58,509 nucleotides of DNA from a bacterium (lineage in GTDB: Bacteria; Vulcanimicrobiota; Xenobia; Xenobiales; JADMJV01), in the NCBI GenBank assembly GCA_030149525.1, contig JASBRJ010000135.1:1-58509 (forward strand), read 5' to 3'. The stretch's first letter is position 1. Each line of letters begins with the position of its first letter. The notes beneath the pieces were generated by a model. That model was not told where the DNA came from. It saw only the letters and a program-made list of their open reading frames with translations, and searched no databases. The position numbers were made by a program, and so were the translations under genes. Below, one piece after another: positions 6,823-57,321 of the stretch.

Positions 6823-9800
6823 TTAGTACCGCGGAGGTACCTCAAGCAGTTCATCCGAGAGACTGGTTCCGGCTTCGGCCAAGGCCGAGGCTTGCTCAAA
6901 CCAAACCTTGTCGTCGGAGGAGAGGCCGGCTATCGCAAGACCTTCCTTGGCGGCGGCAGCGGCCTTATCGTGCTCCTCCTGCAGAGAAAGAATCACAACC
7001 TGCTCGCGTTTGGTCTCGGGATCTTGGGGTCCGGCCTCCAGAGCCAGTTCGAGAGTCTTGGTGGCATCGGCCATTTTCTTGAGTCGACGATAAGCCCTGG
7101 TCAAGTCGAGGTAAACCTCGGGTTGCGGGTCGCTGGACAGAAGTTTGCGGAACTGCACGACAGCAAGGGTGTCCTTACCCACATGACTGTAGGCCCTGGC
7201 TAGCGACAGGAGATATTCCGGATTCTCGGTGTTCTTCTTCTGCAACTCTCTGAACAGGTCGATGAGTTTGCGAGCGTTGGCTTTGGTTCCAAATTTCTCG
7301 TAAGCCGCTTTGAGGGCCGCGATATTTTTCGGGTCCTCGGTGAGTTTGTCTTTCAGGGCGCTGAGCGCCTCTTCCGGATCGTCAGGAAGTTCCATCGGCG
7401 GAACATCGGCAGCAGGGGCAGCCGCAGCCGCTTCTTTTTCCGCTTGAGCCGCTGCTGCAGCCTCAATCTCTTCAAAATGGGCTTTGACCTTTTCGTTCTC
7501 AGGGTCAAGCTCTTTAAGGCGATTGAAGTGCTCGGCTGCAAGTTCGTCTTCCGAGGCTTCCTTGGCGGCTTGGGCAGCGCCTAGAAGAGCGGAAATCAAC
7601 ACAGGTTTCTTCTTGTCCTCGGCTAGGTCGGAGGCTTCAAGAACACCGATGGCATCGTCGAAACGGCTTTCCTCCACCGCTTTCTCAGCCTTCTTCAGTT
7701 CCAAGCTCTGAGCCAGAGCTTGCGTGGACTCGACTTCGCCAAGGGCTTGAGACGCTTTAAGATGCTCTTCGGCTTTGTCGACATCGCCCGAGTCTAAGCT
7801 GGTTTGACCGTGGGCAGCCCATACCTCGGCCGCTTTCTTTTTCGCATCCTCACTGAGGGCGTCGGTGTCCAGCATGGCCAGAAGAGCCAGAGAATCCTCG
7901 GCCCGATCCGATTGACGGCTGTGGGCGGCGTTCACCAGCAGAGTTTGTAGTTCAGCAGGATCTTCCCCAGCATCTTTGAGCCCTTCGATGATGGACGCGA
8001 GGTCGCCGCCTGCGGCCGACTCGAACTGTTTCTTGAGAAGATCTCGGCGGGTGGCCTGAACATCGGCCTTCTTGTCCTCGGAAGCCTTCTCCAACCAGTT
8101 GGCCGATTGAGCAACGGCCGCAGCCAGGTCCCCCTCTTCTTGAAGTTTGGCAACCAGGGCGCCATAGATCCGGTGACGGTCCTCCTCAGACTCCGGCCCG
8201 TCGGGAACTCCTGCTGCAGCGGCCGCCAGATCGCCGGATTCTTCGGCCTGTTTCCAGGCCGGAACTTCTGCAGCCGCGGCAGCATCGAGGATGGCCTTGG
8301 CATCTTGGTTTTCCGGTTCCCGTTGAAGAAGTTGTTCGGCGAAGGATTTCGCTTTCTCTCCGTCTTCAGAGGCCTGAGCGGCTTTTGCCTGTTCCAGAAG
8401 AAGTTCGGCAGCGAGCTTGGAAACCTCGGCGGGGGCGTCGCTCTGCGCCGCTTCTTCGTCGAGCAGGCTCAGCGCTTGGTCTGTCTGCTCGGCAATGAGG
8501 GCCGAGGCTTTCGCTTTCAGAGCATCGAGATAAACGGTTTTGTCTTCGTCTGATTTGGAAGCCACGGCTCGCGCCAGATCGAGAGCCTCCCCTGAATCCG
8601 CTCCTAGGGCGTGGTCTCTTTGTTGGCGCTGGACGCCCAGCAGGGCGTTTTGAAGTTCGGAATTGGAGGAGAACTGGCTGGTTCTCGCCTGGAGAATCTC
8701 CACTGCTTCTCCAAATTTCTGTTCGCCTGCAAGGGCCGTCGCCCGTTCTGACTCCAAAGCAACGAGCTTGCCTACCACCTGTTCGTGGTCGGGGATGTGA
8801 GATAGGAATCGATCGAGGGTGGCGATACCGGCCGCTTTGTCACCGGCTTCAATCTGGCTGTCGGCCTGGGCCAAGAAGATTCGAGCACCGGCTTCGGCTG
8901 GTCGGGCTTCCGACCCCTCCCACAGCACCATCGCTGCTTCGAAAGACTTGACCTCTTCTAGAGCTGCCAGTTGATCCTCAAGTGAGGGCTGCGTGGTCTC
9001 GTCCTCGGCAGGAGGAACCGGCGCTGCCTCGGGTGTTTCTGCAGGTCCTGCGCTTTCCTCGGCAGGCGCAGCAGCCTCTTCGGCAGGAGCCGCAGCTTCC
9101 TCGGCAGGGGCTGCAGCTTCCTCGGCAGGGGCTTCTGCTTCTTCGGCAGGAGCCGCAGCCTCCTCGGCAGGGGCAGCAGCTTCCTGGGCAGGGGCCGCAG
9201 CTTCCTCGGCAGGGGCCGCAGCTTCTTCGGCAGATGCGGTCCCTGAAACTTCGGCTTGGCCGGTGTTCTGGGTGATGTTGAGCTCAGCTTTGAGTTGACC
9301 GGCAAGCTCATCATTGTTTTGGTCGTTGGCGATCTGCAAGCCCGAGGTGAAGAGCTCCAGAGCGCGGTCGGTCTGGCCGGCACCTCTGAGGTATTGGCCG
9401 AAATGGAAGTAGACGGGGGCGTAGCCGGGCGCCTTCTGCAAAATGCTTTCGAAAAGATTCTTGGCTTCGTCGGCCTGTCCGGTCACATTGGCCAGAATAG
9501 CTTGTTGCAGAACTTCCTCGGCGGAGAAGTCGGGGTCGTCCGCTACCGGCTCTGCGGGAACTTGCTCTTCAGCCGCCGCTTCCGGCTGACTGTCGGGTTG
9601 GGTGGCCGGTTCCTCTGGGGCAGCGCTCTCCTCCGCCGCCGGGGTGGGCTCGGCGGTTGCAGGCTCGGCGAAAGGATCGTCGACAGGTTGCGGCTCCGCG
9701 GCTGCAAAAGGGTCCTCCGCAGCAGGCTCAGGAGGGGCGAACGGGTCGTCTGCCGGGGCGGCAGCCTGGAAGGGATCTTCGACCGGAGTGGACTCGGAGG

Positions 9801-12480
9801 GAGTTGTCTCTTGGGCTGCGGCCTCTGCGAAGGGGTCTTCTGCCGCCGCAGGTTCGGGAGTCGCCTCTGCCGGCCCGCCGGAGAAGGGGTCTTCTGCCTC
9901 AACGGGAGCAGCAGCCTCTTGCGATGCGGAGGCAAAGGGGTCTTCCGCAGCGGGCGCCACCGGTTCCGGTTCGGGGGCGCTGGGAGCCTCAGCAGTTGCT
10001 GGTTCAGCGAACGGATTGGATTCTGCAACGGGCTCTTCTGCCACCACAGGTTCAGGCGCAGGAGCTACGTCGGCAAAAGGGTTGCTCGGCTCGGGTTCCG
10101 TCATGGGAGGGTCTTGAGGTGCGGCTGCCGCGAACGGATCGTCGACTGGGGCCGGAGCAGGAGCCGGCTCTTGAGGGGCTGCTGCAGCGAAAGGATCTTG
10201 GACAGAGCTTGCCGGCGGCTCCTGTGGTGCGGCTGCGCTGAACGGGTCCTCTGCAGCAACGGGCTCCGGAGTGGAGGCTGCGAAAGGATCCTCCGAGGCG
10301 CTGGGCAGAGGCTCGGATGGTGCGGCGTCCTGGCCGATGAAGTCGAAGGGATCGGTCGACTCCGGCTCGGTTCGAGGGGGCGCTGCCGGGGCAGGAGTGG
10401 CCACCGGTAGGGGCGGCGCTCCTGCACTGGGGTCGTAGGGGGCAAGAGCAGCCAACGCGTCCGAGGCTTCTTTGTGACTCGGATTGATGGATAGGATGCG
10501 CTGAAAGTTGGCCTTGGCTTCGGCTTCTTGACCGGCGGCCTGCAGGGCTTTGGCGAAGCCCAGAATGCTCTCCACATTGTTTTCTTCGACCCGCACAGCG
10601 GTACGCCAAGCATCGATGGCGTCTTGGGAGCGACCCTGACGATCCAAGAGCCGAGCCTGAGTTTGCCGCAGTTCCACATGCTCGGGGTTGAGCTGGAGAG
10701 CCTTTCGGATCTCTTCCGAGGCTTTGTCCGCCATGCCGGAATCGGCCAGGGCGAGACAGTATTTGGAAATGAAGGTCATGTTGTTGCGGTTCTCTTCGAG
10801 CTTACGTTCGAAGAACTGCAGGGCACGATCGGGTTGGCCAAGTTGCATGTAGGCCTCGCCCAAGCTCACCATAGAAGGGGCGAAAGAAGGCTCCACGTCC
10901 AGCGCCTGCTGGAAGAAATCCACGGCGATGCTGGGCTTTTTCCGACTGGTGAGATAAATATGGCCCAATCCGTGGAGGGCTTCGAAGTGTCTCGGGTCCA
11001 GGCGAACCGTTTCTTGGAACGCCTCGAAAGCGTAGTCGGGCATGTCCAGAGTTTGGAAAGCATGAGCCATACGGAATCTGGCTTCCACCGACTGGGGATT
11101 GAGCTCCACCACTTTCCGATAGAGGGAGATGGCTTCGTCGAACTGTCCTTGCTCCATATGGACGTCGGCCAGAAAAAAGTTGGTTTCCAGATCGTTGGGG
11201 TTGAGTTTGATCGCCTGCTTTAGCTCGTTAGCAGCCTCTTGCGGGCGCTTCGCTTTCAGGTAGGAGCGACCAAGATTGAGGTGATACTGAGCGTCGTGAG
11301 GCTTAAGCTCGACGGCCCGTCGGTAAGCCTCAATAGCTTGCTCCGGTTGGTTAAGCTCATCTCGCATGAGCCCCAGGTTGTAGGCGGCGAAGGCATCCTT
11401 CGGATTCAGGCGAGCCGATTCTCCGTAGTGGGTCGCCGCAGCTTCGAAGTCTTTTTGACGATGGTAGGCTTGAGCCAGGCTGTAGTGAGCGTAGGCGTCC
11501 TGAGGATTGATCTCTAGAGCCTTCCTGAAGCCCGTGATGGCACGGTCGATGTCGCCCAGTTGGAGCGCTGTCGTGCCAAGTTCGTAGACCGCTTCAGACG
11601 AATCCGGATCGAGTTCGACGGCTTTCTCATAACAGTGAATGGCCAGATCCGGTCGGTACATCTGCTTACAGCATTCGGCGAGTCGAAGGTGGATGCGGGC
11701 GTCGGTGGGGTCCAGATCGAGAGCGCGCTGATATTGCTTCATGGCGCGCTTGTATTTGGTCTGCTTCATGAAGATTCGGCCCAAGGCGAAGTGATACTTA
11801 CTCACTTCCGGGTCGAGTTCAATGGCTCGCTCGACATGGCGAAGAGCAAGAGCGCTCATGTTCTCTTTTTCGTAGATCAGGCCGAGCTCGTAGTGAGAAT
11901 CGGCATAGCGAGAGTTCCCGTCGATGGCGCGCTGAAAAGACGTGATGGCGAGCTTGTTCTGCCCCAGTTGGCTGAAGATTTCACCCATCTGGTAGTGGGC
12001 TTCCCAAAGATCGGGATTGATGTCTAGAGCGCGCTTCAGGCTCTGCAGCGCCAGCTCCGGTTTTTGGAAATATTTGTAGGCGGTTCCTAGCTGGTAACGG
12101 GCAAAGGCATCTTTCGGATTGATGACGATGGGGCGCTCGAGTTGCTGGATGGCCGAGTCGAATTTTGGCTTGTAGATTGGGCGCAGTTCGGGGCTGGAGA
12201 AGTTGTTGTGCAAGTAGGGATCAAGCTCGAAAGCTTTGGCCCACTCTTGCAAGGCCAGTTGAAGTTCACCACCTTTTGCAAACAGAAATCCCCTGTGAAG
12301 ATAGCTCATGGCGTGGCGAGGCTGCAGCTTGATGGCTGTTTCATAATGCTTGACAGCCTCGGCCGTATTGCCGGCATCTTCATGGGCGAACCCCAGCCTG
12401 AAATGGGCTTCCGGGTTTTCCGGTTGTAACTTTACTAATGTTGAGTACTTTTGTACTTCTGGTGAGGTAACTTCAGCCAT
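6823..12480 (-). CDS. Giant tetratricopeptide-repeat protein with DPF/NPF-rich linker
   Basis: This 1885-residue protein fills 5.7 kb. Residues 1 to about 680 are a near-continuous array of 34-residue TPR units, many ending in the form LNP or LDP. Residues about 682-975 are disordered and rich in Pro, Ala and Glu, with twelve DPF and two NPF tripeptides, often as EDPFAAA. A short TPR-like block (about 978-1075) follows, then a 7-residue repeat region (APAEEAA, about 1080-1155), then an Ala-rich helical and TPR-like C-terminus with a final set of repeats near 1690-1860. No signal peptide or membrane helix is visible, so it is probably cytoplasmic and a scaffold. The ATG at 12480 follows AGGA 8 bases upstream. 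It is a single-gene unit ended by the terminator at 6774. Confidence 0.9.
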   Translation of the reverse strand: MAEVTSPEVQKYSTLVKLQPENPEAHFRLGFAHEDAGNTAEAVKHYETAIKLQPRHAMSYLHRGFLFAKGGELQLALQEWAKAFELDPYLHNNFSSPELRPIYKPKFDSAIQQLERPIVINPKDAFARYQLGTAYKYFQKPELALQSLKRALDINPDLWEAHYQMGEIFSQLGQNKLAITSFQRAIDGNSRYADSHYELGLIYEKENMSALALRHVERAIELDPEVSKYHFALGRIFMKQTKYKRAMKQYQRALDLDPTDARIHLRLAECCKQMYRPDLAIHCYEKAVELDPDSSEAVYELGTTALQLGDIDRAITGFRKALEINPQDAYAHYSLAQAYHRQKDFEAAATHYGESARLNPKDAFAAYNLGLMRDELNQPEQAIEAYRRAVELKPHDAQYHLNLGRSYLKAKRPQEAANELKQAIKLNPNDLETNFFLADVHMEQGQFDEAISLYRKVVELNPQSVEARFRMAHAFQTLDMPDYAFEAFQETVRLDPRHFEALHGLGHIYLTSRKKPSIAVDFFQQALDVEPSFAPSMVSLGEAYMQLGQPDRALQFFERKLEENRNNMTFISKYCLALADSGMADKASEEIRKALQLNPEHVELRQTQARLLDRQGRSQDAIDAWRTAVRVEENNVESILGFAKALQAAGQEAEAKANFQRILSINPSHKEASDALAALAPYDPSAGAPPLPVATPAPAAPPRTEPESTDPFDFIGQDAAPSEPLPSASEDPFAASTPEPVAAEDPFSAAAPQEPPASSVQDPFAAAAPQEPAPAPAPVDDPFAAAAPQDPPMTEPEPSNPFADVAPAPEPVVAEEPVAESNPFAEPATAEAPSAPEPEPVAPAAEDPFASASQEAAAPVEAEDPFSGGPAEATPEPAAAEDPFAEAAAQETTPSESTPVEDPFQAAAPADDPFAPPEPAAEDPFAAAEPQPVDDPFAEPATAEPTPAAEESAAPEEPATQPDSQPEAAAEEQVPAEPVADDPDFSAEEVLQQAILANVTGQADEAKNLFESILQKAPGYAPVYFHFGQYLRGAGQTDRALELFTSGLQIANDQNNDELAGQLKAELNITQNTGQAEVSGTASAEEAAAPAEEAAAPAQEAAAPAEEAAAPAEEAEAPAEEAAAPAEEAAAPAEEAAAPAEESAGPAETPEAAPVPPAEDETTQPSLEDQLAALEEVKSFEAAMVLWEGSEARPAEAGARIFLAQADSQIEAGDKAAGIATLDRFLSHIPDHEQVVGKLVALESERATALAGEQKFGEAVEILQARTSQFSSNSELQNALLGVQRQQRDHALGADSGEALDLARAVASKSDEDKTVYLDALKAKASALIAEQTDQALSLLDEEAAQSDAPAEVSKLAAELLLEQAKAAQASEDGEKAKSFAEQLLQREPENQDAKAILDAAAAAEVPAWKQAEESGDLAAAAAGVPDGPESEEDRHRIYGALVAKLQEEGDLAAAVAQSANWLEKASEDKKADVQATRRDLLKKQFESAAGGDLASIIEGLKDAGEDPAELQTLLVNAAHSRQSDRAEDSLALLAMLDTDALSEDAKKKAAEVWAAHGQTSLDSGDVDKAEEHLKASQALGEVESTQALAQSLELKKAEKAVEESRFDDAIGVLEASDLAEDKKKPVLISALLGAAQAAKEASEDELAAEHFNRLKELDPENEKVKAHFEEIEAAAAAQAEKEAAAAAPAADVPPMELPDDPEEALSALKDKLTEDPKNIAALKAAYEKFGTKANARKLIDLFRELQKKNTENPEYLLSLARAYSHVGKDTLAVVQFRKLLSSDPQPEVYLDLTRAYRRLKKMADATKTLELALEAGPQDPETKREQVVILSLQEEHDKAAAAAKEGLAIAGLSSDDKVWFEQASALAEAGTSLSDELLEVPPRY
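9046..9238 (-). repeat. 21-bp tandem repeat coding for APAEEAA units
   Basis: About nine in-frame 21-base units (on the plus strand approximately TCCTCGGCAGGGGCCGCAGCT) lie inside the giant TPR gene. They encode 7-residue units with occasional Gln, Glu or Ser replacements. Wobble positions vary, so the array is not brand new. Confidence 0.85.
9600..10350 (-). repeat. DPF/NPF motif-repeat region within the giant TPR gene
   Basis: Irregularly spaced (roughly 12-30 residues) DPF or NPF motifs, fourteen in total, lie in a Pro/Ala/Glu-rich linker. DNA identity between units is only partial, while the tripeptide is kept, suggesting selection on the motif rather than recent duplication. Confidence 0.75.
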
Positions 12481-29946: not shown

Positions 29947-31215
29947 ATGAAAACTGTAGCAATGTTGTTGGCCGGTGGTGAGGGAAGTCGCCTGACAGTC
30001 CTTTCGGAGCAGAGAGCAAAGCCTGCTGTTCCTTTCGCCGGAAAGTTTCGAATTATTGATTTTACCCTCTCCAACTGCGTTCATAGTGGGATCGGTACGG
30101 TGGGTGTTCTGACCCAATACCGCCCTCACAGTCTGAACGAGCATATCGGCATCGGTAAGCCTTGGGGTTTGGACCGTTCACGCGGCGGAGTTCGTTTGCT
30201 GCCCCCCTATCACGGCAGGGGCCATCAAAGATGGTTTGCCGGGACCGCAGATGCCATCTACCAGAACCTCGGATTCATCAGCGACCATCGGGCCGATTCC
30301 GTCCTCATCCTCTCCGGTGACCACATCTACAAGATGGACTACCGCGAGATGATTCGCGCCCACGAAGAGCGAGGCGCCGACCTCACCGTGGCCGTCATGG
30401 AGGTCCCCATCGAAGAAGCTTACCGTTTCGGGATCATGAAAGTGGACGAAGACGGTCGGATCGTGGAGTTCGCGGAGAAGCCGAAGGACCAGAGCAAGGG
30501 CAATCTCGCCTCCCTGGGGATCTATGTTTTCTCGGCGAGCGTCTTGGACAGAGTCTTGAGGCGTGAAAATGAGAATCATACCGATCTGGATTTCGGAAAG
30601 CATGTCATACCTTCGATGCTGGCCGACGGCAGTCGGGTGATCTCTTACCGTTTCAGTGGATACTGGGTCGATGTGGGAACGGTCGACTCCTATCTCAACA
30701 CCAATTTAGAACTGGTGGGCAATCGGGCGGCACTCGACCTCTACGATGAAAAATGGCCTATTCTGACTCAGTCGGAAGAGAGACCCGCCGTCAAGATCGG
30801 TCCCCAGGGTAAAGTGACCGATGCTCTCGTTTCTAACGGTTGTGTGGTTAAAGGACTGGTGAAGAATTCCGTTCTCTCTCCCGGAGTCTACGTCTCTCCC
30901 GGTGCCATCATCGAAAACTCCGTCGTCATGAACGATGTTTGGGTCGGTCCCGGAGCCCACATCAACAACATGGTGATCGACAAGCAGGTGCGAGTCGGAC
31001 CCGGTTGTGTCTTAGGGCAGGGCGATCCCGCTGTCCCTAATGAGAAGATGCCGGACAAATTGAGCGCCGGTATCAGCGTTATCGGCAAAGGAGCCATCAT
31101 CCCGCCCGGTTGTAAAATCGGACTCAATGTCTTAGTCGACTCTGAAGTGGAAGAGAGCGACTTTAATGAAGAGCTGGTGGTGGCCGACGGACAGACAGTG
31201 GAGCGTGCGAAATGA
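29947..31215 (+). CDS. glgC: Glucose-1-phosphate adenylyltransferase, catalytic type
   Basis: The 422-residue enzyme makes ADP-glucose from glucose 1-phosphate and ATP for glycogen synthesis. The N-terminal nucleotidyltransferase domain keeps the catalytic signature [10 protein letters not shown] with R15, RAKP with K25, [14 protein letters not shown] and [12 protein letters not shown] left-handed beta helix (hexapeptide repeats from about residue 290: [17 protein letters not shown]) forms the regulatory and oligomerisation domain. Length and layout match bacterial GlgC. Its TGA overlaps the next ATG in ATGA (31212), so it is coupled to a second, degenerate homologue. Confidence 0.93.
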
Positions 31216-32477
31216 GTTCAGCTTTTGCTTTGATTATGGCCGGAGGGCCAAGCCCCGGATTGTCGGTGCTCACGGAGGTGCGCGCCGCGCCGGCTATCCC
31301 GTTCGGGGGTAAGTATCGTCTTATTGATTTTGCACTTTCTAACTGTGTGAATTCGGGAGTCTTCAACGTGGCGGTTCTCACCCAGTATCGGCCTCACAGC
31401 CTGAGTGAACATCTCGGCACCGGTGCCCCTTGGGACTTAGACTTGATGAAGGGTGGTCTCCGTGTGCTGCACCCGTTTCAGGGAGGCCGCTTTGGTGATT
31501 GGCAAAGAGGCACGGCGGATGCTGTGCGGCGTAACCTTGAGTTTGTGGGAGAGCAATCGGAAAACAACGTTCTAGTCCTGGCAGGCGATCATGTCTACAC
31601 CATGGACTATGGTCCTATGATCCGTCGCCACGAGGATTCGGGAGCCGATCTGACCGTCGCTTGTAGACGAGTGAGTCCCCATGAAACTCATCGTTTTGGG
31701 ATGATCGTCAAGGGATCCGATGATCGTATCACCGGTTTTGAAGAGAAACCGAAGCGCACCCGCCAGACCCTCGCCTCCATGGGAGTCTATGTTTTCAAGA
31801 GGAGTGCCCTGCTGGATATTCTCAGCGATGAGTCTCACACCGATTTCGGTCGAGATGTTCTGCCCGCTATGATTGAAGGCGGCAAAGATGTTCGTGCTTA
31901 CAACTTCCCCGGATACTGGAGTGATATCGGAACGGTACAAGCGTATTGGGAGGCCAATATGGGGCTGCTGTCCGAGGATCCGGCCCTCGATCTTTACAAT
32001 CCGGATGCCCGGGTTCACACGCGAAGCCAGGAGTCCGGCCCCGTGAATATCGGTCGAGAAGCTCAGGTGGAAGGCAATCTGCTGAGCAACGGCTGTATCG
32101 TTGAGGGGACGGTGCAAAATTCCATCATTAGCCCCGGAGTGAAGATCGCCGCCGGTGCCGTGGTGACCAACAGCATCATCCTTCACGGAACGGTCATCGA
32201 GGCGGGTGCCGTCGTCGATAAGTGCATTATCGATAAGCAGTGTCACATCGGAGCCGAAGCGAAAGTAGGCGATGGAGACGACAACACTCCCAACCAGGCT
32301 TTGCCCCGGGCTCTCAACACCGGCTTGACCATTGTAGGTCGCGATTCGGAGATCCCCAAAGGGGTGATACTGGGGCGCAACGTCACAGTCCATTCGGGAA
32401 CACGTGCCGCAGACCCGGCTTTCAAGAAAAAGAAGAAAGTGATCAAGAGCGGTTCCGTGGTGGGAAAACCGGAGTAA
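31212..32477 (+). CDS. GlgC paralogue, probably a non-catalytic (GlgD-like) subunit
   Basis: At 421 residues it aligns end to end with the upstream GlgC ([46 protein letters not shown], then hexapeptide repeats). The ATP-handling loop has decayed: where GlgC has GGEGSRL and RAKP, this has GGPSPGL and RAAP, so both the catalytic Arg and Lys are lost (G16 and A26). Plant large subunits and Firmicutes GlgD proteins have lost the same kind of residues and act as regulatory partners. The ATGA overlap with glgC supports equal production. I infer a heteromer; the role is not shown. Confidence 0.85.
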
Positions 32478-49293: not shown

Positions 49294-49803
49294 ATGGTTC
49301 ACCTAGCGCCCTTGGGCCAAGACGATTCCAGCATACTCTACGGGTGGCTCAGCGACCGCACTTACCGATTGGACAGCGGGGGATTCGCTTTCGTCAGCCC
49401 ACGGCAACATGAGAGCTGGTTTGAGAACCTTCAAAAGGGGAGTGACAGCGCCCTTGCGCTTGCCGTCAGACGGACAGAAGACGAGAAGTTGGTCGGCCTT
49501 GTTCAGCTGGTCAACATCAATCGCACCTATCGAAACGCGGAATTGCGAATCCGACTAGCGCCGGCGCTGGGAGGTAAAGGATACGGCACTCAGGCCTCAC
49601 GCTTGCTGTGTGAGCATGCTTTCAAAGATCTCAATCTTCATCGAGTGTATCTCTATGTACGGGCCTCCAACGGGCGAGCTATCCGGTGCTACGAAAAGGT
49701 GGGCTTTCAGCAAGAGGGACGTTTACGCCAACACTGCTTCGTGGATGGGGAGTATGACGACTTTACCGTCATGGGGCTCCTGGCCTCGGAGCTTACTCTT
49801 TAA
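49294..49803 (+). CDS. GNAT acetyltransferase, RimL-like
   Basis: This is a 169-residue N-acetyltransferase. LVGLVQLVNINRTYRNAELRI forms the core beta strands, LAPALGGKGYGTQASRLL the acetyl-CoA-binding loop (GGKGYG), LNLHRVYLYVRASNGRAIRCYEKVGF the C-terminal core, and FVDGEYDDFTVMGLL the final strand. The fold matches RimL/PseH/SpeG-like enzymes. Its place between a methyltransferase and the surface-glycan genes suggests a small-molecule or sugar substrate, but this is inference. AGAGGTGAGCTC precedes the ATG. The 3' end overlaps the opposing ligase gene by 11 bases. Confidence 0.87.
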   Translation: MVHLAPLGQDDSSILYGWLSDRTYRLDSGGFAFVSPRQHESWFENLQKGSDSALALAVRRTEDEKLVGLVQLVNINRTYRNAELRIRLAPALGGKGYGTQASRLLCEHAFKDLNLHRVYLYVRASNGRAIRCYEKVGFQQEGRLRQHCFVDGEYDDFTVMGLLASELTL

Positions 49804-51943
49804 CCCCCTCGGGAAGAGGGAAGAGCGGGTCGAGACGGTGCGCTTCTCGGAGATAGTATAAAGCTTCTTCGTTGCGGCCTTGATAATAGAGGCTCACACC
49901 CAAACCATGAAGCCCTCGGGGGCCCTTTTGGCCTTCCAGGATGAAGCGATAAAGGGGCTCGGTCTCCTTGGGATACCGGTAGGGGGTCAAGGTGTCCGCT
50001 ATGAGAAAAAAGAGTTGTGCCAGTTGAGTCCTTAACTTATCTGCGTGGCCTTTGTGGGCGAGTTTGAACTGTTCCAGGGGGTACTGGCGCAGAGCGGCCC
50101 CGGCCCACCGGCTGAAGGCTTCGCGGTCCCCCTGAGAGGCCGCGATGGTGATCAGTCCGTGGTAGATAAGAGGTCGATTAAAGGGGTCGAGGCTAAGAGC
50201 TTTCTCAAAGTTTTTCCGGGCCTCATCAACGCGGCCCCTCTGATAAAAGAAGTCGCCCGCAAGCTGGTAAGATTGGGCGTTGTGAGGGGCCGATTTGAGC
50301 ACACGGTCGACCAGCGGTTCCAACAGATCGAGCAACCGCTCCCTAGCCTTCTGGTCTTCCGACTGGCCGGAGAGAAAAAGACCCGTTTCCAGGCCCTTTA
50401 GAGCCGGCTTGGACCAGTGGGGGAGCGCGTGGGAAATGCGGAGAGAATTCTCCATAAGAAGTTGGTCGTCGTAGCTTGCTCGAGCTGATTCAAAATCTCG
50501 CTGAAGAAGCCCCACGTAGAGCAGCGGAAAGATGGCTAAAGCAAGGGCGTAGGTGGGCCTAAACGGTTTGGCCCGGGTGGGGTCTTCGGGGGCGGGTCCG
50601 TGGAGCACCGCGCCAACAAAGGCAAGTGTTATCCACACATAAGCGAACTGGTAGGTGACGTCCACCTGGGCTTGCACGAGGCCTGCTCCAAATCCCACCA
50701 GGGCAAAAGACTGCGTTATAGATAAGGTTCGTTGGCCGGCGACGCGTCGTGCCAGTGCGGCCAGGCCTAGGAGAAAGAGCGTCGCTCCAACCCAACCCAA
50801 TTCGGAGGCCAGTTCCAAAAAGCTGTTATGGGGCGAGTCACTGTAATAATAATAGTGTTTCTGATGTTGAGGGTAGTAGTCTGAGAAGCCATCTGGCCCC
50901 GTACCGAGAATCGGATGATCGTTTGCAATATCCAAGGCCGCTTCCCAGAACTCTAGTCGAGATTTTGTGGAGTTGTCGAACTGAACCAGATTGTCCATCC
51001 TGGATTTGGCATTGTGGCCGAGGTCGGTGGCCGTCTTGGAATGACCCACCATCAGAACCACGAGACCAGCCAGTGCCATGGCTTGCAGGCATCGCAATTG
51101 AGGTGATTTGGACCGCCGAAAAAACGCACATTCAAAGAAGGCAGGAAGCTGAGTGGCCACAGCCCAGCAGGCGATGAAACCCGGGCCGCCCAGTTGGTCG
51201 CGAAGGGATAGCAGAAGAGCGGCTAGTCCCAAGAGAGTCAGTGCCCAGGCCAAAACTCGTTTCCACCCGACGGATTGGGCCAAAAGTGTGACAATCCCGA
51301 GGGTTGTAAGGGTAAGGATCCAACAGGCTCGAGAATAGGTGAGAGCGAGGCTTGCCAAAGTCAGTCCGCAGGTAATAAGTGAAACGGGAAGATACCTTTT
51401 GTCTCCCAGAAGTAGATCCTGGAGCAGCAAGGGGAGCAACAAAAGAAGCCAGTTCGAATAAACGTTGGCTAAAAGGAAGGGGCCTGTGACGCGAATGACA
51501 TCGTCATTGAAGACCATGGGCAAAAGTGAGAGCACAGCGACACCGGTGACCGGCCCGTGAAAGAGTCCGAGCTTTCTCTTCATGCAGAAATTGCGCGGAT
51601 AGAGCTTAACTGTACAAAGAAAAATAAGCACCGCAGCCAGCCACGTCTGAGAAAAGAGAAGGGCATCGAATAGCTTGCCGCCGGCAGCGCTTGATAGAAA
51701 GACCCAGGTGAGAAACAGGCAGGTGGTCACGGACAGCGGATTGAGCCGAGGCTTGGCCGGCAGGCTTGCCACAAAAGCTGAAATCGCTAGGACCAGAAGC
51801 AGGGTACGATTGGAGTCAAAGAGCCCCGGCTTCAAGAGAACAAGAGGATTGGAATCGGAAAAGTCGAGATAAAGACCCACCATGGCTATCAGGGGCAGGC
51901 ACCACAGAAGCAGAAGAAAAGCTTCGGAAATCCGACGACTCAT
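49793..51943 (-). CDS. O-antigen-ligase/polymerase-family membrane protein with C-terminal TPRs
   Basis: The 716-residue protein has about 12 membrane helices over residues 5-480 and a Wzy_C/WaaL-type periplasmic loop (residues about 320-395: SRLEFWEAALDIANDHPILGTGPDG, then YSDSPHNSFLELASELGWVG) with conserved Arg and His. About 560-715 hold TPR units (SYQLAGDFFYQRGRVDEARKNFEKALSLDPFN; GLGVSLYYQGRNEEALYYL). Members of this family transfer glycan from undecaprenyl diphosphate to lipid A or another acceptor, or polymerise repeat units. Standard WaaL lacks the TPR tail. It anchors the glycan locus. Confidence 0.9.
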   Translation of the reverse strand: MSRRISEAFLLLLWCLPLIAMVGLYLDFSDSNPLVLLKPGLFDSNRTLLLVLAISAFVASLPAKPRLNPLSVTTCLFLTWVFLSSAAGGKLFDALLFSQTWLAAVLIFLCTVKLYPRNFCMKRKLGLFHGPVTGVAVLSLLPMVFNDDVIRVTGPFLLANVYSNWLLLLLPLLLQDLLLGDKRYLPVSLITCGLTLASLALTYSRACWILTLTTLGIVTLLAQSVGWKRVLAWALTLLGLAALLLSLRDQLGGPGFIACWAVATQLPAFFECAFFRRSKSPQLRCLQAMALAGLVVLMVGHSKTATDLGHNAKSRMDNLVQFDNSTKSRLEFWEAALDIANDHPILGTGPDGFSDYYPQHQKHYYYYSDSPHNSFLELASELGWVGATLFLLGLAALARRVAGQRTLSITQSFALVGFGAGLVQAQVDVTYQFAYVWITLAFVGAVLHGPAPEDPTRAKPFRPTYALALAIFPLLYVGLLQRDFESARASYDDQLLMENSLRISHALPHWSKPALKGLETGLFLSGQSEDQKARERLLDLLEPLVDRVLKSAPHNAQSYQLAGDFFYQRGRVDEARKNFEKALSLDPFNRPLIYHGLITIAASQGDREAFSRWAGAALRQYPLEQFKLAHKGHADKLRTQLAQLFFLIADTLTPYRYPKETEPLYRFILEGQKGPRGLHGLGVSLYYQGRNEEALYYLREAHRLDPLFPLPEGVKE

Positions 51944-52003
51944 GAGGGCTGCGGGAACAGCCTGCTAGAGGAGAAGAATCTTGGACCACAAATCGCTGAA
52001 GCC

Positions 52004-52663
52004 ATGTTTGATACGGATTATCATCGAGTAGAGCAACTCCTCCTAGCAAACCAAAGAGAGCTGCCCTGGTTTCGGTTCCGGACTCAAAGATTTTTGAAAC
52101 GATTCTTCGATCTCTCCGTCGGTAGCTTTTTGCTGGTAGTGTCTTTGCCGGTCATGGCAATCACGGCTCTAGCGGTCAAAATGACCAGTCCCGGGCCCGC
52201 TCTTTTTATCCAAACTCGCCTTAAGCACGGGGCAAAACCGTTCCGAATGTTGAAGTTTCGGACCATGACCGATAGTCCGTCTCACGAACTGAAAGAGGTG
52301 ACCGGAAGCGACCCGCGTTTGACCTCCATTGGAGCTTTCTTACGAGCTTCAAGACTCGATGAACTTCCCCAACTCGTGCATGTGCTCCGAGGAGAGATGA
52401 GTCTCGTGGGCCCTCGACCGGACGTACCGCAGAACCTCTCCAGATATACCGATTCCCAATTGCTCCGTTTTGCCATGCCCCAGGGGTGTACAACCTGGGG
52501 CGTCATCCGCGGGGGGCTGCTCAACGATTGGAGCACTCGACAAGACATGAATGCCGAATATGTTTGGAAGTGGTCCTTTGGCCTCGACCTCAAGATTCTG
52601 ATCAAGACAGTTTATGTTCTGTTGGCCCAGAAAGGAACCGAGCCGGAGTCGGCGGAGAATTGA
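52004..52663 (+). CDS. Undecaprenyl-phosphate sugar transferase (initiating glycosyltransferase)
   Basis: The 219-residue protein is a PF02397-type bacterial sugar transferase with one membrane helix (about 35-60: LSVGSFLLVVSLPVMAITALAVKMTS). Marks are KRFFDLSVG, GPALFIQTR, FRMLKFRTM, RLTSIGAFLRASRLDELPQLVHVLRGEMSLVGPRPD (the catalytic Asp-Glu pair) and a C-terminal WSTRQDMNAEYV. It transfers a sugar 1-phosphate to undecaprenyl phosphate, the first step of glycan assembly. The short form lacks the multi-spanning N-terminal domain of WbaP. Its stop overlaps the WbqC-like start by TTGA. Confidence 0.93.
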   Translation: MFDTDYHRVEQLLLANQRELPWFRFRTQRFLKRFFDLSVGSFLLVVSLPVMAITALAVKMTSPGPALFIQTRLKHGAKPFRMLKFRTMTDSPSHELKEVTGSDPRLTSIGAFLRASRLDELPQLVHVLRGEMSLVGPRPDVPQNLSRYTDSQLLRFAMPQGCTTWGVIRGGLLNDWSTRQDMNAEYVWKWSFGLDLKILIKTVYVLLAQKGTEPESAEN

Positions 52664-53334
52664 GAGTCACTATTCATCAGCCCCAGTACCTTCCGTATTT
52701 GGGATTTTTTCATAAGGTGAAGCGTTGCGATGTTTTTATCGCGCTCGACGATGTTCAGTTCCAAAAGAACGGACTGCAGAATCGTAATAAGATAAAGAAC
52801 GCCAACGGCTGGCAATGGTTAACAGTCCCGGTCAAGCATCGCCTGGAGCAATCCATCAACGAGGTGGAGATCAACGCCCGGCAGAGGTGGGGTCAGAAGC
52901 ATTGGAACGCTCTCAAGACGAACTATTCCAAGGCCGAATATTTCTCCCCTTATGCGACCGAACTCGAGGCACTCTTGACCTCGTCCTGGAGCAAGCTCTG
53001 CCCTCTGAATATGGCGTTGACCGAGTGGGCCTTCAAGCATCTCGCTCTCACCCCGAAAATCGTCTATTCCTCGGAGCTTGATGTTGGGGGAGAGAGCACC
53101 GACCGCCTGGTGAATCTTTGCAAGGCCGTAGGGGGAGATTGCTATCTTTCCGGTCCGGGCGGCAAGCGGTACTTGCGGGAGGAAGCGTTCCCCCAGGCAG
53201 GTTTGACTCTGGAGTATCAGCAGTTCGAACACCCCACCTATCCGCAGATGTTTCCTAAAAGCGACTTCGTCCCTTACATGTCGATTGTGGACGCCTTATT
53301 CTGCTGTGGGCCGGAGGCCAGGCACTTGCTCTGA
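52660..53334 (+). CDS. WbqC-like protein
   Basis: The TTG at 52660 overlaps the upstream stop (TTGA). The 224-residue product begins RVTIHQPQYLPYLGFFHKV, the conserved opening of the WbqC family (PF08889), with FIALDDVQFQKNGLQNRNKIK and LTVPVKHRL following. Near the end is YLSGPGGKRYLREEAF, then FPKSDFVPYMSIVDALFCCG, typical of the family. WbqC-like proteins are encoded in O-antigen and capsule loci; their reaction is not settled. A longer frame to the left would overlap the sugar transferase, so it is rejected. It converges on the PIG-L gene with a 6-base gap. Confidence 0.9.
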   Translation: MRVTIHQPQYLPYLGFFHKVKRCDVFIALDDVQFQKNGLQNRNKIKNANGWQWLTVPVKHRLEQSINEVEINARQRWGQKHWNALKTNYSKAEYFSPYATELEALLTSSWSKLCPLNMALTEWAFKHLALTPKIVYSSELDVGGESTDRLVNLCKAVGGDCYLSGPGGKRYLREEAFPQAGLTLEYQQFEHPTYPQMFPKSDFVPYMSIVDALFCCGPEARHLL

Positions 53335-53340
53335 CCTTGC

Positions 53341-53973
53341 TCAGTAGATGGTGCGAATGAGTTCGAACGCCTCGGCATAAAGGCAGCCTATCTGAGCGCC
53401 GCGCACCCGAGCCAGCCCTTTGATGAAGCCGTCGTCGATGTAGCTTCGAAACTGCTGAGATTTATATTCGGCGATAGCCGCACATTTCTTGAGAACATGT
53501 TTTTCCTCCAGGCGGAAAAACGCGGTCGAGCTGAACTCGATGCTGTCCCAGGGGAGATCGTAGCCGAGGCAGGTGTAGTGCTTGAAGGCTCTGAGGCCTT
53601 CGGCGTAGATGGCGTGATGATCCTGATGAAGAGCGTATTTGCAGGGCATAAAGACCACGTCGGGATCGATTCGAGTGCGCAGCTGGACCAGTTCTTCCAG
53701 AATATCTTGACGGTGCTGGTTGAACTTCCGCACAGGATAGTCTCGAACAATAAGATTCTCAAGTTTAATGCCTAGTTTCTTGGTGGCCGCCACAACTTCA
53801 TGGCGAAGAGCGTCGCGTGGGAAGCCCTCCGGGACGCTCTCTTCGCAGGCGCTGAAAGCCACATAAGTGATTTCCGCCCCGGTATCGAGGTAGCGAGCCA
53901 GCGTGCCGCCGCAGCCCAATTCTCCATCATCGGTGTGGGGAGCCAGCACCAGTACTTTCTCTGCGTTGACCAT
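53341..53973 (-). CDS. PIG-L family N-deacetylase
   Basis: The 210-residue protein has the LmbE/PIG-L marks: VLVLAPHTDDGELGCGGTLARY (AHPDDE-like, with HTDDGE) and CKYALHQDHHAIYAEGL, the second metal-binding cluster (HQDHH). Known members remove the N-acetyl group from GlcNAc-type sugars such as GlcNAc-PI or bacillithiol and mycothiol intermediates. The ATG at 53973 follows GGGAG; a longer frame would run into the opposite-strand acyltransferase. It lies 20 bases downstream of the LpxD-like gene on the same strand, so the two are probably co-transcribed. Confidence 0.93.
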   Translation of the reverse strand: MVNAEKVLVLAPHTDDGELGCGGTLARYLDTGAEITYVAFSACEESVPEGFPRDALRHEVVAATKKLGIKLENLIVRDYPVRKFNQHRQDILEELVQLRTRIDPDVVFMPCKYALHQDHHAIYAEGLRAFKHYTCLGYDLPWDSIEFSSTAFFRLEEKHVLKKCAAIAEYKSQQFRSYIDDGFIKGLARVRGAQIGCLYAEAFELIRTIY

Positions 53974-53993
53974 GATCTTTACTCCCAAATACC

Positions 53994-54965
53994 CTATTGA
54001 AGGGTGGCTTGTTGGTGCAATCTCTTGAGAAAACCTCGTCTGCCGGCTAAGCTGCGGATCTCCTCGGCTGGTGAGCCCGCCCAGGTTTCTCCATCGGGAA
54101 CGTCCTTCATGACGACGCCGCCGAAGCCGACAACCACGTCGTTGCCGACCTTGGTTTTCTCTTTCACAATCGTATTCACAGCCAGCCAACACCTGTCACC
54201 AACTTGGGAGCCACCGCACAGAACGACTCCGGCCGTAAGCAGGGTGTCTTTGCCAACCTCGCAGTTGTGGCCGATGTGGCAGTAATGATCGAGTTTTGCG
54301 CCCCGTCTTATTCGAGTGGTTCCCAGGGTGGCTCGATCCACGTTGCAGAAGGGATAGATCTCCACGTCGTCTTCCAGGAGGACGTTACCGATATGTTCAA
54401 ACTTCTCACAACGACCGTCTTCTGCGCGGACAAACCCGAATCCGTCGGACCCGATGATCACATGCTCATGGATGATGACCCTGTCCTTGAGCACACTTCC
54501 ATGCTTGATACAGGAGTTGGAGCCGATGTGGCAGTCCTGTCCTATCTCCACCTTCTCAATGATGGCAAAGGCTCCCACACTTACGTTGGAACCGATCACC
54601 GCTTCCTGGTGCACCAAGGCGGTGGGATGGATTCCGGCGGAGCGCGGTGGCTTGAACAACCGGGACACGGCGCGTGCAAATTGTCGCTTGGGGTTGTCGA
54701 CAGCGATAAAGCAGGTTGTTGGCAGCAGGGATTCGGGCGGCACGAGTTGAGGATCGCAGAAAATCACCGAGACGCCACTGTTCATCAGTCTCTGCTCTTT
54801 GTCGGGAAGGCTACTTCTGATCCAGCTCAAAGCTCCCTTACAGTCGTCTAGGATGGAGGCGGCTCGATGAAAAGTTGCCGAGGTATTGCCTGAAACCTTC
54901 GCCCCGTCCGTGAGACCAGCTAAATCCTTGAGGCCGTACCCGACCGGGTCTGAGGCGTGCTGCAT
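53994..54965 (-). CDS. LpxD-like hexapeptide-repeat N-acyltransferase
   Basis: The 323-residue protein has an N-terminal alpha/beta segment (about 25-110, with CFIAVDNPKRQFARAVSRLF) like the uridine-binding LpxD domain, then left-handed beta-helix hexapeptides (GIHPTALVHQEAVIGSNVSVG to GRRG). It carries IIGSDGFGFV, NVDRATLGTTRI and KLDHYCHIGHNCEVG, aligned with LpxD's SDGFGY and IAHN (catalytic His). LpxD itself adds an acyl chain to the 2-amino group of UDP-3-acyl-glucosamine. The WAGSPAEEI end is more like sugar O- or N-acyltransferases. With the PIG-L gene next to it, it may acylate a freed amine in glycan synthesis; this is inference. Confidence 0.87.
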   Translation of the reverse strand: MQHASDPVGYGLKDLAGLTDGAKVSGNTSATFHRAASILDDCKGALSWIRSSLPDKEQRLMNSGVSVIFCDPQLVPPESLLPTTCFIAVDNPKRQFARAVSRLFKPPRSAGIHPTALVHQEAVIGSNVSVGAFAIIEKVEIGQDCHIGSNSCIKHGSVLKDRVIIHEHVIIGSDGFGFVRAEDGRCEKFEHIGNVLLEDDVEIYPFCNVDRATLGTTRIRRGAKLDHYCHIGHNCEVGKDTLLTAGVVLCGGSQVGDRCWLAVNTIVKEKTKVGNDVVVGFGGVVMKDVPDGETWAGSPAEEIRSLAGRRGFLKRLHQQATLQ

Positions 54966-55041
54966 TCTGAGATTTTATCTTAAGCGCCACAGTGAAGCAA
55001 ACAGAGTACCAAAGTCTTAACTCAAGAAAATGGGAGAGTCG

Positions 55042-56106
55042 ATGAAAAACGTATTAACCGTTGTGGGAGCGCGCCCTCAGTTCATAAAGGCTGCCATGAT
55101 CAGTCGGCAGATGCGAAATTCGAACCGGCTCAAGGAGATCATCGTTCACACCGGTCAACATTATGACGCGAATATGAGCGAAGTTTTCTTTCAGGAATTA
55201 GGGATTCCGCAACCGGATTTCCACTTAGGAATCTCCGGCGGCGGACACGGAGAAATGACCGGTAAGATGATGTGTGAACTGGAGCCGCTGTTCAGTCGCG
55301 TCCAACCGGACCTCGTGCTGGTTTACGGAGACACAAATTCGACGCTGGCGGCGGCTCTGGTGGCCTGCAAACTGCACATACCGGTCGCTCATGTGGAGGG
55401 AGGGTTGAGAAACCACGACCTCTCCATACCCGAAGAGGTCAATCGGGTGGTGACCGACCGCGTGAGTCGCCTGGTCTTCTATCCCACCGACCGGGCTCTT
55501 GAGAATCTTCTCGCTGAGGGCTTTGAAGGTTTCGGCTGCCGCTTGGTGAGGACGGGGGATCTGATGTACGATGCGGCCCTCTGTTTTCGCCCACCGGCTG
55601 GTCGACCTGCGCAAAGTTACGTCCTTTTAACTCTCCACCGGGCCTCAAACACAGAGCCCGAGAGCCTACCGGAAATCGTCTCTGCGCTCAATGAGATCGC
55701 TTGTGAAGGGAAACTGATTTTTCCAGTTCATCCAAGGACCAGGGGAGCTCTGTCTCGCCAGGGTCTCACTCTTCATCCCAACATCGAGCAACTGGAGCCG
55801 GTGGGATACCTTGAGATGCTGAGCCTTTTGGACGGCTGTGAAAAAGTGATCACCGACAGTGGGGGGCTGCAGAAAGAGGCCTACGCCTATGGAAAGACGG
55901 GGCTGGTTCTCATGGAACACACTCCGTGGGAGGAACTGGTGGAGGAGCAATATCTCCGTACAACCGCCATCAAGCAAACGGCGATTCTCGAGAATTGGCG
56001 GAAAGTGAGCGGGCTCAAACCTTCAGGGCGACTTCTTTATGGGGACGGGAACTCGGCCCGAATGGTGATTCAGGCGCTGGAGGAGTTCTTATCCTCCTCG
56101 CTTTGA
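55042..56106 (+). CDS. wecB: UDP-N-acetylglucosamine 2-epimerase (non-hydrolysing)
   Basis: The 354-residue enzyme interconverts UDP-GlcNAc and UDP-ManNAc. Marks are VVGARPQFIKAAMISRQM, VHTGQHYDANMSEVFFQEL, VYGDTNSTLAAALVAC, VAHVEGGLRNHDLSIPEEVNRVVTD, VLLTLHRASNTE and ITDSGGLQKEAYAYGKTGLVL, which contains the allosteric and active-site residues. I prefer the ATG at 55042, with GGGAG 5 bases upstream; an ATG at 55030 is an alternative. It is divergent from the LpxD-like gene, and its 3' end overlaps the opposing glycosyltransferase gene by 18 bases. Confidence 0.93.
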   Translation: MKNVLTVVGARPQFIKAAMISRQMRNSNRLKEIIVHTGQHYDANMSEVFFQELGIPQPDFHLGISGGGHGEMTGKMMCELEPLFSRVQPDLVLVYGDTNSTLAAALVACKLHIPVAHVEGGLRNHDLSIPEEVNRVVTDRVSRLVFYPTDRALENLLAEGFEGFGCRLVRTGDLMYDAALCFRPPAGRPAQSYVLLTLHRASNTEPESLPEIVSALNEIACEGKLIFPVHPRTRGALSRQGLTLHPNIEQLEPVGYLEMLSLLDGCEKVITDSGGLQKEAYAYGKTGLVLMEHTPWEELVEEQYLRTTAIKQTAILENWRKVSGLKPSGRLLYGDGNSARMVIQALEEFLSSSL

Positions 56107-57321
56107 GGACCACTTTTTTGCCGTTTCTAGAACGGCTCTCTCGAACTTGGAGCAGATGGCGGAAATGGTGTGGTGTTCGGCAATGAACTGCTGTCCACGT
56201 TGCCCCATGGCCTGTCGTTCTTCAGGACCGGCTCTCATGAGCTGAACCAGGCCGTCGGCGATCTCCTCCGGTTCGCCGGGAGTGACGCTCACTCCGGCCT
56301 TGGCTTGCTCCACCGGGTTGTTGACGGCGCCGCAGGCAAACAGGACGGGCCGACCGGAGGCCAGGTAGTCGAAGAGCTTGTTGGCACTGAGGCCGAATTT
56401 GTGAAGCTTCACCCTTGGGGTGCTGTAGATCAGGGCGTCGTGACGGGAAAGGATTCCCGGTACTTCAGATTTTGGGACCTGCTCCTTGAAGGTGACGTTG
56501 GAGAGGTTGAGCTCCCTGGCAATGCCTTCAAGACGCTCGCGATCCGGGCCACCTCCCTGGAGAATAATTTCGATAGGCTCCGAGCGTTGCTGCAAGATCC
56601 GGGCCGCTTGGAGAACAAATTCTAACCGATACTGGCGACTGATGGAACCGAGATAGATAGCCCGAAACGGACCGTCGAGAGGCTCGCGGGCTACTATCTC
56701 CATCCCGCTTCCGTTAGGGACCCAGAAGATGTTATCCGGGTCGGCCCCGAGCTCTTCTATGTGGGACATGGAGTTGGGGAGCAAAGTTACGATCCCGTCG
56801 GAGTATCTGTAGACGAATTTTTCGATAACCTCAAACAGAAGGTAGGCCGGATGGTATCGGGAGAGAGGATATTCCAGCAGCGCTTCGGGCCAAATGTCCC
56901 GTATTTCCGTGAGGGCGGGAAGACGCCAGTAACGGGAGAGCATCCAGGTAGCAAGCGGAGTGAGCGGGTGAACCGAGGAGCCCACTATCAGATCCGGCTT
57001 GGGGACCGAATGGGTCGTCCAGAAGAGGGCCGAGATGAGAAAGTTGAAAAAGAAGCTTATCATATTGAGCCCCCGGCGGGGACCGTTGCCATGATAGAAC
57101 GTTGTTCGAATCCAGACCCAACGGACCCCGTCCACGTATTCCACCACAGGCCGCCAGCCTTCGTGAACTCGATACTCGGAACCGTCGGAATGGGAGCGAC
57201 TGGTGGCCCACACCGTAACATCGTAGCCTCGCGAGTTCAGTTCTTGAGCCAGATCGTAGTGACGGGTGCCTCCACCCTGCTTCGGTTGAACTGCGTAGTG
57301 ATTGACCAGCCAGATATTCAC
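56089..57321 (-). CDS. Glycosyltransferase family 4, WbuB-like
   Basis: The 410-residue GT4 enzyme opens IWLVNHYAVQPKQGGGTRHYDLAQEL, typical of the WbuB-like group, with a DLIVGSSVHPLTPLATWML segment and EIRDIWPEALLEY. The C-terminal GT-B domain shows AIYLGSISRQYRLEFVLQAARIL, IILQGGGPDRERLEGIAREL and a nucleotide-sugar-binding segment SANKLFDYLASGRPVLF. WbuB-type enzymes transfer N-acetyl-L-fucosamine-like amino sugars, but the sugar here is unknown. One hydrophobic helix near 88-105 may associate it with the membrane. It overlaps wecB tail to tail by 18 bases. Confidence 0.92.
   Translation of the reverse strand: MNIWLVNHYAVQPKQGGGTRHYDLAQELNSRGYDVTVWATSRSHSDGSEYRVHEGWRPVVEYVDGVRWVWIRTTFYHGNGPRRGLNMISFFFNFLISALFWTTHSVPKPDLIVGSSVHPLTPLATWMLSRYWRLPALTEIRDIWPEALLEYPLSRYHPAYLLFEVIEKFVYRYSDGIVTLLPNSMSHIEELGADPDNIFWVPNGSGMEIVAREPLDGPFRAIYLGSISRQYRLEFVLQAARILQQRSEPIEIILQGGGPDRERLEGIARELNLSNVTFKEQVPKSEVPGILSRHDALIYSTPRVKLHKFGLSANKLFDYLASGRPVLFACGAVNNPVEQAKAGVSVTPGEPEEIADGLVQLMRAGPEERQAMGQRGQQFIAEHHTISAICSKFERAVLETAKKWSSKRGG

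Follow-up and report, generated by a model that had tools for sequence, protein, structure and literature searches.

A PIG-L deacetylase and an LpxD-like acyltransferase in a bacterial glycan locus: a possible acyl-swap route on an amino sugar

Does a glycan locus in which a deacetylase gene adjoins an acyltransferase gene exchange one N-acyl group of an amino sugar for another? The question is raised by a stretch of 58,509 nucleotides from a bacterium of the Vulcanimicrobiota (GenBank assembly GCA_030149525.1, contig JASBRJ010000135.1), referred to in its full length as the window, in which the two genes concerned form a minus-strand pair:

53341..53973, minus strand: PIG-L/LmbE deacetylase, 210 aa (Pfam PF02585, 66.6 bits)
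53994..54965, minus strand: LpxD-like left-handed beta-helix N-acyltransferase with an LpxD-type N-domain, 323 aa (NF002060, 221 bits)

The stop codon of the LpxD-like gene is separated from the ATG of the PIG-L gene by 20 bases on the same strand, as given in a preliminary description made from the sequence alone, which proposed that an N-acetyl group is removed from a sugar and replaced by another acyl group. With a probability of roughly 60%, the two enzymes catalyse consecutive steps on one amino sugar, which would be deacetylated and then re-acylated. The logic of the earlier proposal is thus supported, by a recurrent linkage to deacetylases and by a separate lipid A set in the genome, while the route itself and the identities of sugar (GlcN or ManN) and acyl group stay provisional.

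The linkage was followed in relatives of the LpxD-like protein. Used as query against 84,980 species genomes, this protein retrieved five: a Gemmatimonadaceae (L042), a Curvibacter (L043), a Chitinophagaceae (L044) and an Ignavibacterium (L045) member and one from a Euryarchaeota metagenome-assembled genome (MAG; L046). At E <= 1e-70, a search around the Ignavibacterium host added one more member (G428), and phylum and family searches around the Gemmatimonad and Curvibacter hosts added none. Starting from the acyltransferase and not counting the L079 seed, thirteen loci were found (L042-L046, L131, L127, L128, L102, L129, L130, L089 and L084). A sugar deacetylase lies within ~5.3 kb in ten of them, a recurrent linkage of deacetylase and N-acyltransferase, and is the immediate neighbour in seven. 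Two kinds of partner share these loci equally. The PIG-L subfamily occurs in five (L044, L045, L084, L089, L102), downstream of the LpxD-like gene by two genes in L044 (53% identity), where WecB lies in between, and by one gene in L045 (49%). In five others (L042, L043, L046, L129, L131), a CE4-type, polysaccharide-deacetylase-like gene lies directly upstream; profile searches of the PDB with this partner hit nothing but CE4-type entries and relatives of these, and did so weakly (best E 0.005), while in fold searches PplD, IcaB and chitin deacetylases came first and WbmS further down. That one acyltransferase clade is linked to two unrelated deacetylase folds lends, as far as gene neighbourhoods tell, good genomic support to a deacetylate/re-acylate logic.

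Co-occurrence points the same way. The PIG-L subfamily (E <= 1e-60) was found in 40 and the LpxD-like clade (E <= 1e-65) in nine of 299 Chitinophagales genomes; PIG-L is present in 6/9 genomes with the LpxD-like gene vs 34/290 without it (Fisher p = 2.5e-4, or p = 0.006 once two alignment-seeding genomes are removed). Five of the six co-occurring pairs span 1.5-5.2 kb, where random placement predicts ~0.02 pairs.

The LpxD-like protein itself passes the cut-off of the NCBIfam LpxD subfamily model NF002060 (207 bits) and stays below that of the LpxD equivalog TIGR01853 (205.7 bits; cut-off 242.5). Its residues were tabulated for 15 LpxD-like proteins against E. coli LpxD, the genome's own LpxD and 16 sampled LpxDs of the phylum, with residue roles taken from the LpxD literature (PMC6286764). 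The catalytic-His segment seen in the preliminary description is indeed present: the catalytic His (E. coli H239, here H233) and the oxyanion Gly (G257, here G251) are kept in 15/15, and the Asp contacting the acyl hydroxyl (D232, here D226) in 13/15, with one Gly and one Asn. The acyl-contacting Q236 corresponds to H230, a His in 14 of the 15 and mostly Gln in LpxD, and the uracil-stacking F41 to W48, Trp or Phe in all. The second His, H276 of E. coli, contacts the alpha-phosphate in C. trachomatis LpxD (PMC6286764); its counterpart, K270, is a His in 0/15 LpxD-like proteins (K/R/G/Y) vs 16/16 phylum LpxDs, E. coli LpxD and the genome's own. Y47, a phosphate contact in LpxD, is not retained either. 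The kept His, Gly, Asp and W48, set beside the changed H276 and Y47, indicate from the alignment that the acylation chemistry and the base-stacking aromatic are preserved and that pyrophosphate recognition is altered. The C-terminal end is unlike that of LpxD, as had been noticed, and some members of the clade have a shortened C-terminal helix or none. A search of the genome with PF04613, the LpxD N-domain model, gave no match, a misleading result as the N-domain has diverged; NF002060 detects it in the window protein and in a protein on contig C13.

For the PIG-L gene, translation likely starts at the ATG at 53973, preceded by GGGAG, rather than at a GTG at 54192. Membership of the PIG-L/LmbE superfamily is evident from the PF02585 domain and the PHxDD and HxxH motifs, here PHTDDGE (H13, D15, D16) and HQDH (H116, H119); these metal/catalytic motifs are invariant in an alignment with Chitinophagaceae and Ignavibacterium homologues. 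Many of the closest homologues are also located in glycan loci. In five Chitinophagales loci (L085, L086, L088, L090, L092), a homologous PIG-L gene is followed by glycosyltransferase and HisH/HisF-like genes, and a HisH-like gene also lies near the CE4/LpxD-like pair in L042 and L043, the latter with a WbpG-like PP-loop protein as well; these neighbours suggest a link to sugar amidine formation.

Several observations weigh against consecutive action of the two enzymes. Three of the 13 loci (L130 and the near-copies L127 and L128) have no deacetylase nearby. The PIG-L subfamily is much the commoner of the two in Chitinophagales (40 vs 9 genomes) and often occurs without an LpxD-like gene, so that it is not dedicated to this partner. 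Because glycan genes cluster anyway, proximity is inflated and the expectation of ~0.02 pairs is too low. Since both LpxD phosphate contacts are changed, a UDP-sugar substrate is not assured. The AlphaFold model of the LpxD-like protein is weak (pLDDT 63, pTM 0.40; the N-domain is better); the top 25 PDB matches of this low-confidence model in Foldseek are all LpxD, but the poor modelling of the helix keeps the TM-scores low.

What else could the two proteins do? That the LpxD-like protein is a second LpxD for lipid A, perhaps compensating for a short LpxD elsewhere in the genome, could be argued from its NF002060 score and from the ~213-217 aa LpxD on contig C225 (L032, about 7131-7739), which has no N-terminal uridine-binding domain. 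A separate lpxD-lpxA-lpxB set, which the preliminary description had asked for, nevertheless exists in the 8.27-Mb genome: LpxC on C225 is surrounded by BamA, Skp/OmpH-like proteins, the short LpxD, a Gfo/Idh protein and LpxA, and LpxB lies on C7. The LpxD-like gene is not part of this bamA-skp-lpxD-lpxC-lpxA cluster; it is not the only lpxD, and it sits in a glycan cassette. The short LpxD retains the catalytic His, the oxyanion Gly and the second His, and a family relative (G005; L135, 6250-7035) likewise has a short LpxD without N-domain in the same kind of cluster. Trees that include E. coli LpxD (L133), the LpxDs of the phylum and the genome's own LpxD set the LpxD-like clade apart from all canonical LpxD (support 100/99), and five family relatives (G001-G005) match the window protein merely at E 1e-11 to 1e-15, none closely. 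A lipid A role is therefore very unlikely and was rejected. A role of PIG-L in low-molecular-weight thiol synthesis, with the LpxD-like gene as an incidental neighbour, is less probable still, almost negligibly so: BshB1 is its best NCBIfam match, but at 61.1 bits (TIGR04001, cut-off 182.5), with BshB2 at 40.8 (TIGR04000, cut-off 195), and its homologues are located in glycan loci and are repeatedly found next to LpxD-like genes, so that this explanation, too, was discarded.

Two further alternatives keep both enzymes in glycan synthesis. The enzymes may hit different positions on separate sugars: PIG-L would free an amine of the first, and the LpxD-like protein, like left-handed beta-helix acyltransferases of the PglD/WlbB/QdtC type, would acylate the 3- or 4-amino group of the second. 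The many PIG-L loci without an LpxD-like gene and the lost phosphate contacts would fit, as would a Gfo/Idh oxidoreductase near the pair in L044, L084 and L089, joined in L044 by a further hexapeptide transferase, as in 3-amino sugar pathways. However, ORF and Pfam scans of the window cassette revealed neither an aminotransferase nor a Gfo/Idh gene, the LpxD-type N-domain is missing from PglD-type enzymes, and this explanation would not lead one to expect a linkage with two unrelated deacetylases; we regard it as unlikely. The WbqC protein encoded in the cassette might instead, alone or additionally, re-modify the amine that PIG-L exposes; the LpxD-like protein would then be a second, alternative acyltransferase. 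In six Chitinophagales loci (L091, L094, L104, L105, L111, L113), wbqC lies immediately 3' of a homologous PIG-L gene on the same strand, and in the window it converges on PIG-L; WbqC, which is uncharacterised, may thus share a role with PIG-L, maybe acting on the exposed amine. Yet the window wbqC is on the strand opposite to PIG-L, whose pair partner is the LpxD-like gene; WbqC was not found near the CE4-type loci, and a literature search among open-licence papers gave no relevant paper on its activity. This alternative is accordingly quite doubtful, and deacetylation followed by re-acylation of one amino sugar is preferred.

The remaining genes of the cassette, on some of which the preferred route would draw, and a GNAT gene that possibly belongs to it are:

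49294..49803, plus strand: GNAT N-acetyltransferase, abutting the ligase gene (Pfam Acetyltransf_3, 72.3 bits; weak SpeG/PseH resemblance)
49793..51943, minus strand: WaaL/Wzy_C-type O-ligase with C-terminal TPR repeats, 716 aa (Pfam Wzy_C, 68.9 bits, and TPRs)
52004..52663, plus strand: initiating phosphoglycosyl transferase (Bac_transf), 219 aa (Pfam PF02397, 173.8 bits)
52663..53337, plus strand: WbqC-family protein, ~223 aa (Pfam PF08889, 267.6 bits)
55030..56106, plus strand: non-hydrolysing UDP-GlcNAc 2-epimerase, WecB type (TIGR00236, 246.8 bits; cut-off of 210.15 passed)
56089..57321, minus strand: GT4 glycosyltransferase, WcaI/WbuB-like (Pfam PF13579, 64.3 bits; PF00534, 53.1 bits)

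PIG-L would hydrolyse the N-acetyl group of an N-acetylhexosamine, probably UDP-GlcNAc, or UDP-ManNAc from the adjacent WecB, which would supply ManNAc stereochemistry before or beside the two steps; wecB is found with the pair in L044 and L080 as well as in the window, and in L102 it is two genes beyond PIG-L. The LpxD-like protein, as a trimer, would then N-acylate the freed amine from an acyl thioester, plausibly a short 3-hydroxyacyl donor, as suggested by a MaoC-type hydratase gene that ends 7 bases before the LpxD-like gene in L044 and by the retained acyl-contact Asp. The initiating transferase and GT4 may incorporate the modified sugar in a short glycan on a lipid carrier, which the WaaL/TPR ligase could transfer to an acceptor (lipid A core or protein). 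We infer that a single nitrogen is the target of both enzymes, and likewise the identity of sugar, donor and acceptor and the stage at which the sugar is modified, as a nucleotide sugar or in lipid-linked form.

ORF, Pfam and NCBIfam checks placed all seven genes named in the preliminary description where it had put them. They lie together, but not as one operon: besides the PIG-L/LpxD-like pair, the genes for the initiating transferase and WbqC are paired on the plus strand, and wecB and the LpxD-like gene point away from each other. The wbqC gene is the frame at 52663-53337 rather than a longer open reading frame (ORF) beginning at 52486. Matches to family models fall below the cut-off for the initiating transferase (TIGR03025, 215.7 bits) and GT4 (NF007640, 73.7 bits), and the ligase weakly matches exosortase-type and TfpM O-glycosylation ligases. 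The cassette is flanked by genes for a GGDEF protein, a methyltransferase and the GNAT enzyme, which possibly belongs to it, on one side and for a nicotinate phosphoribosyltransferase on the other. Its G+C content (GC) is even, 0.53-0.57 against 0.557 for the whole window; composition therefore shows no sign of recent transfer. An Rfam search of the window gave no RNA. Elsewhere in the window, 29947-32477 holds two tandem GlgC-like nucleotidyltransferase genes with C-terminal hexapeptide domains, and 6823-12480 a single gene for a 1885-aa TPR-repeat protein.

Some observations concern the LpxD family in this lineage more widely. A second member of the LpxD family, encoded on C13 of the same genome (L035, about 1495-2397), carries an LpxD-type N-domain but neither the catalytic His (VGPRAK for IAHN) nor the oxyanion Gly; it and the short LpxD look as if substrate binding and catalysis had been divided between them. 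An order relative (G006, L136) has a longer LpxD, and a conserved ~600-aa protein lies between LpxD and LpxC. The best matches to the LpxD-like protein in the window's own phylum were considered as relatives and set aside, those inspected being canonical LpxD beside Skp/LpxC.

The wider proposition, on which we are evenly divided, is that the separate LpxD-like clade and PIG-L or CE4 constitute a pathway, so far undescribed, that swaps acyl groups on the amino sugars of glycans, convergent with LpxC/LpxD and yielding N-(3-hydroxy)acyl hexosamines. Hosts of the clade are Bacteroidota/Ignavibacteriota, Gemmatimonadota, Pseudomonadota, a Euryarchaeota MAG and the window's phylum. If true, three unrelated deacetylases (LpxC, PIG-L, CE4) would serve the LpxD fold, the logic of lipid A synthesis having been assembled again with other deacetylases. 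Because database models score LpxD-like proteins as LpxD, as NF002060 does here, enzymes that swap acyl groups on glycans could be taken for members of the lipid A pathway. If the module is real, its genomic signature would be simple: an LpxD-like protein in which His replaces Gln236 and the second His is missing, with a PIG-L or CE4 neighbour. This signature would mark surface glycans bearing unusual N-acyl groups.

How does the putative module compare with known systems? In the Raetz pathway, LpxC and LpxD likewise deacetylate a UDP-HexNAc and N-acylate it with an LpxD fold that uses the same catalytic His, oxyanion Gly and Asp (PMC6286764). Here, in contrast, PIG-L or CE4 would replace the unrelated LpxC, there is no LpxA partner, and the acyltransferase belongs to a separate clade, lacks the second His and is encoded in a glycan cassette. 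In the maturation of teicoplanin and A40926, the PIG-L-fold Tei2/Dbv21 exposes a glucosamine amine that is N-acylated by Tei11/Dbv8 (PMC4101496, PMC8987122), the same order of a PIG-L-type deacetylase and an N-acyltransferase as proposed for the window pair. There, however, the substrate is antibiotic-bound GlcNAc, Tei11/Dbv8 are not described as LpxD-like, and an epimerase, an initiating transferase and a ligase are absent, unlike in the window cassette. A CE4 deacetylase and an N-acyltransferase also make up NodB/NodA of lipochitooligosaccharide signals, whose logic is that of the CE4-paired relatives (L042, L043, L046, L129, L131); NodA is not LpxD-like, and its substrate is chitin oligomers. 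WbmS of a Bordetella O-antigen locus (PDB 3hft) has a polysaccharide-deacetylase fold and is among the fold matches of the CE4-type partner; the match is weak (rank 48, E 0.053), the function of WbmS is putative, and the window holds no such protein. Among open-licence papers, literature searches on WbqC, LpxD-like proteins and PIG-L/re-acylation gave neither a matching pathway, in agreement with the preliminary description, nor an LpxD-like enzyme in a glycan locus. The deacetylate/re-acylate logic is thus already known from LpxC/LpxD, Tei2/Tei11 and NodB/NodA; what appears to be new, with good genomic support, is the LpxD-like enzyme in a glycan locus.

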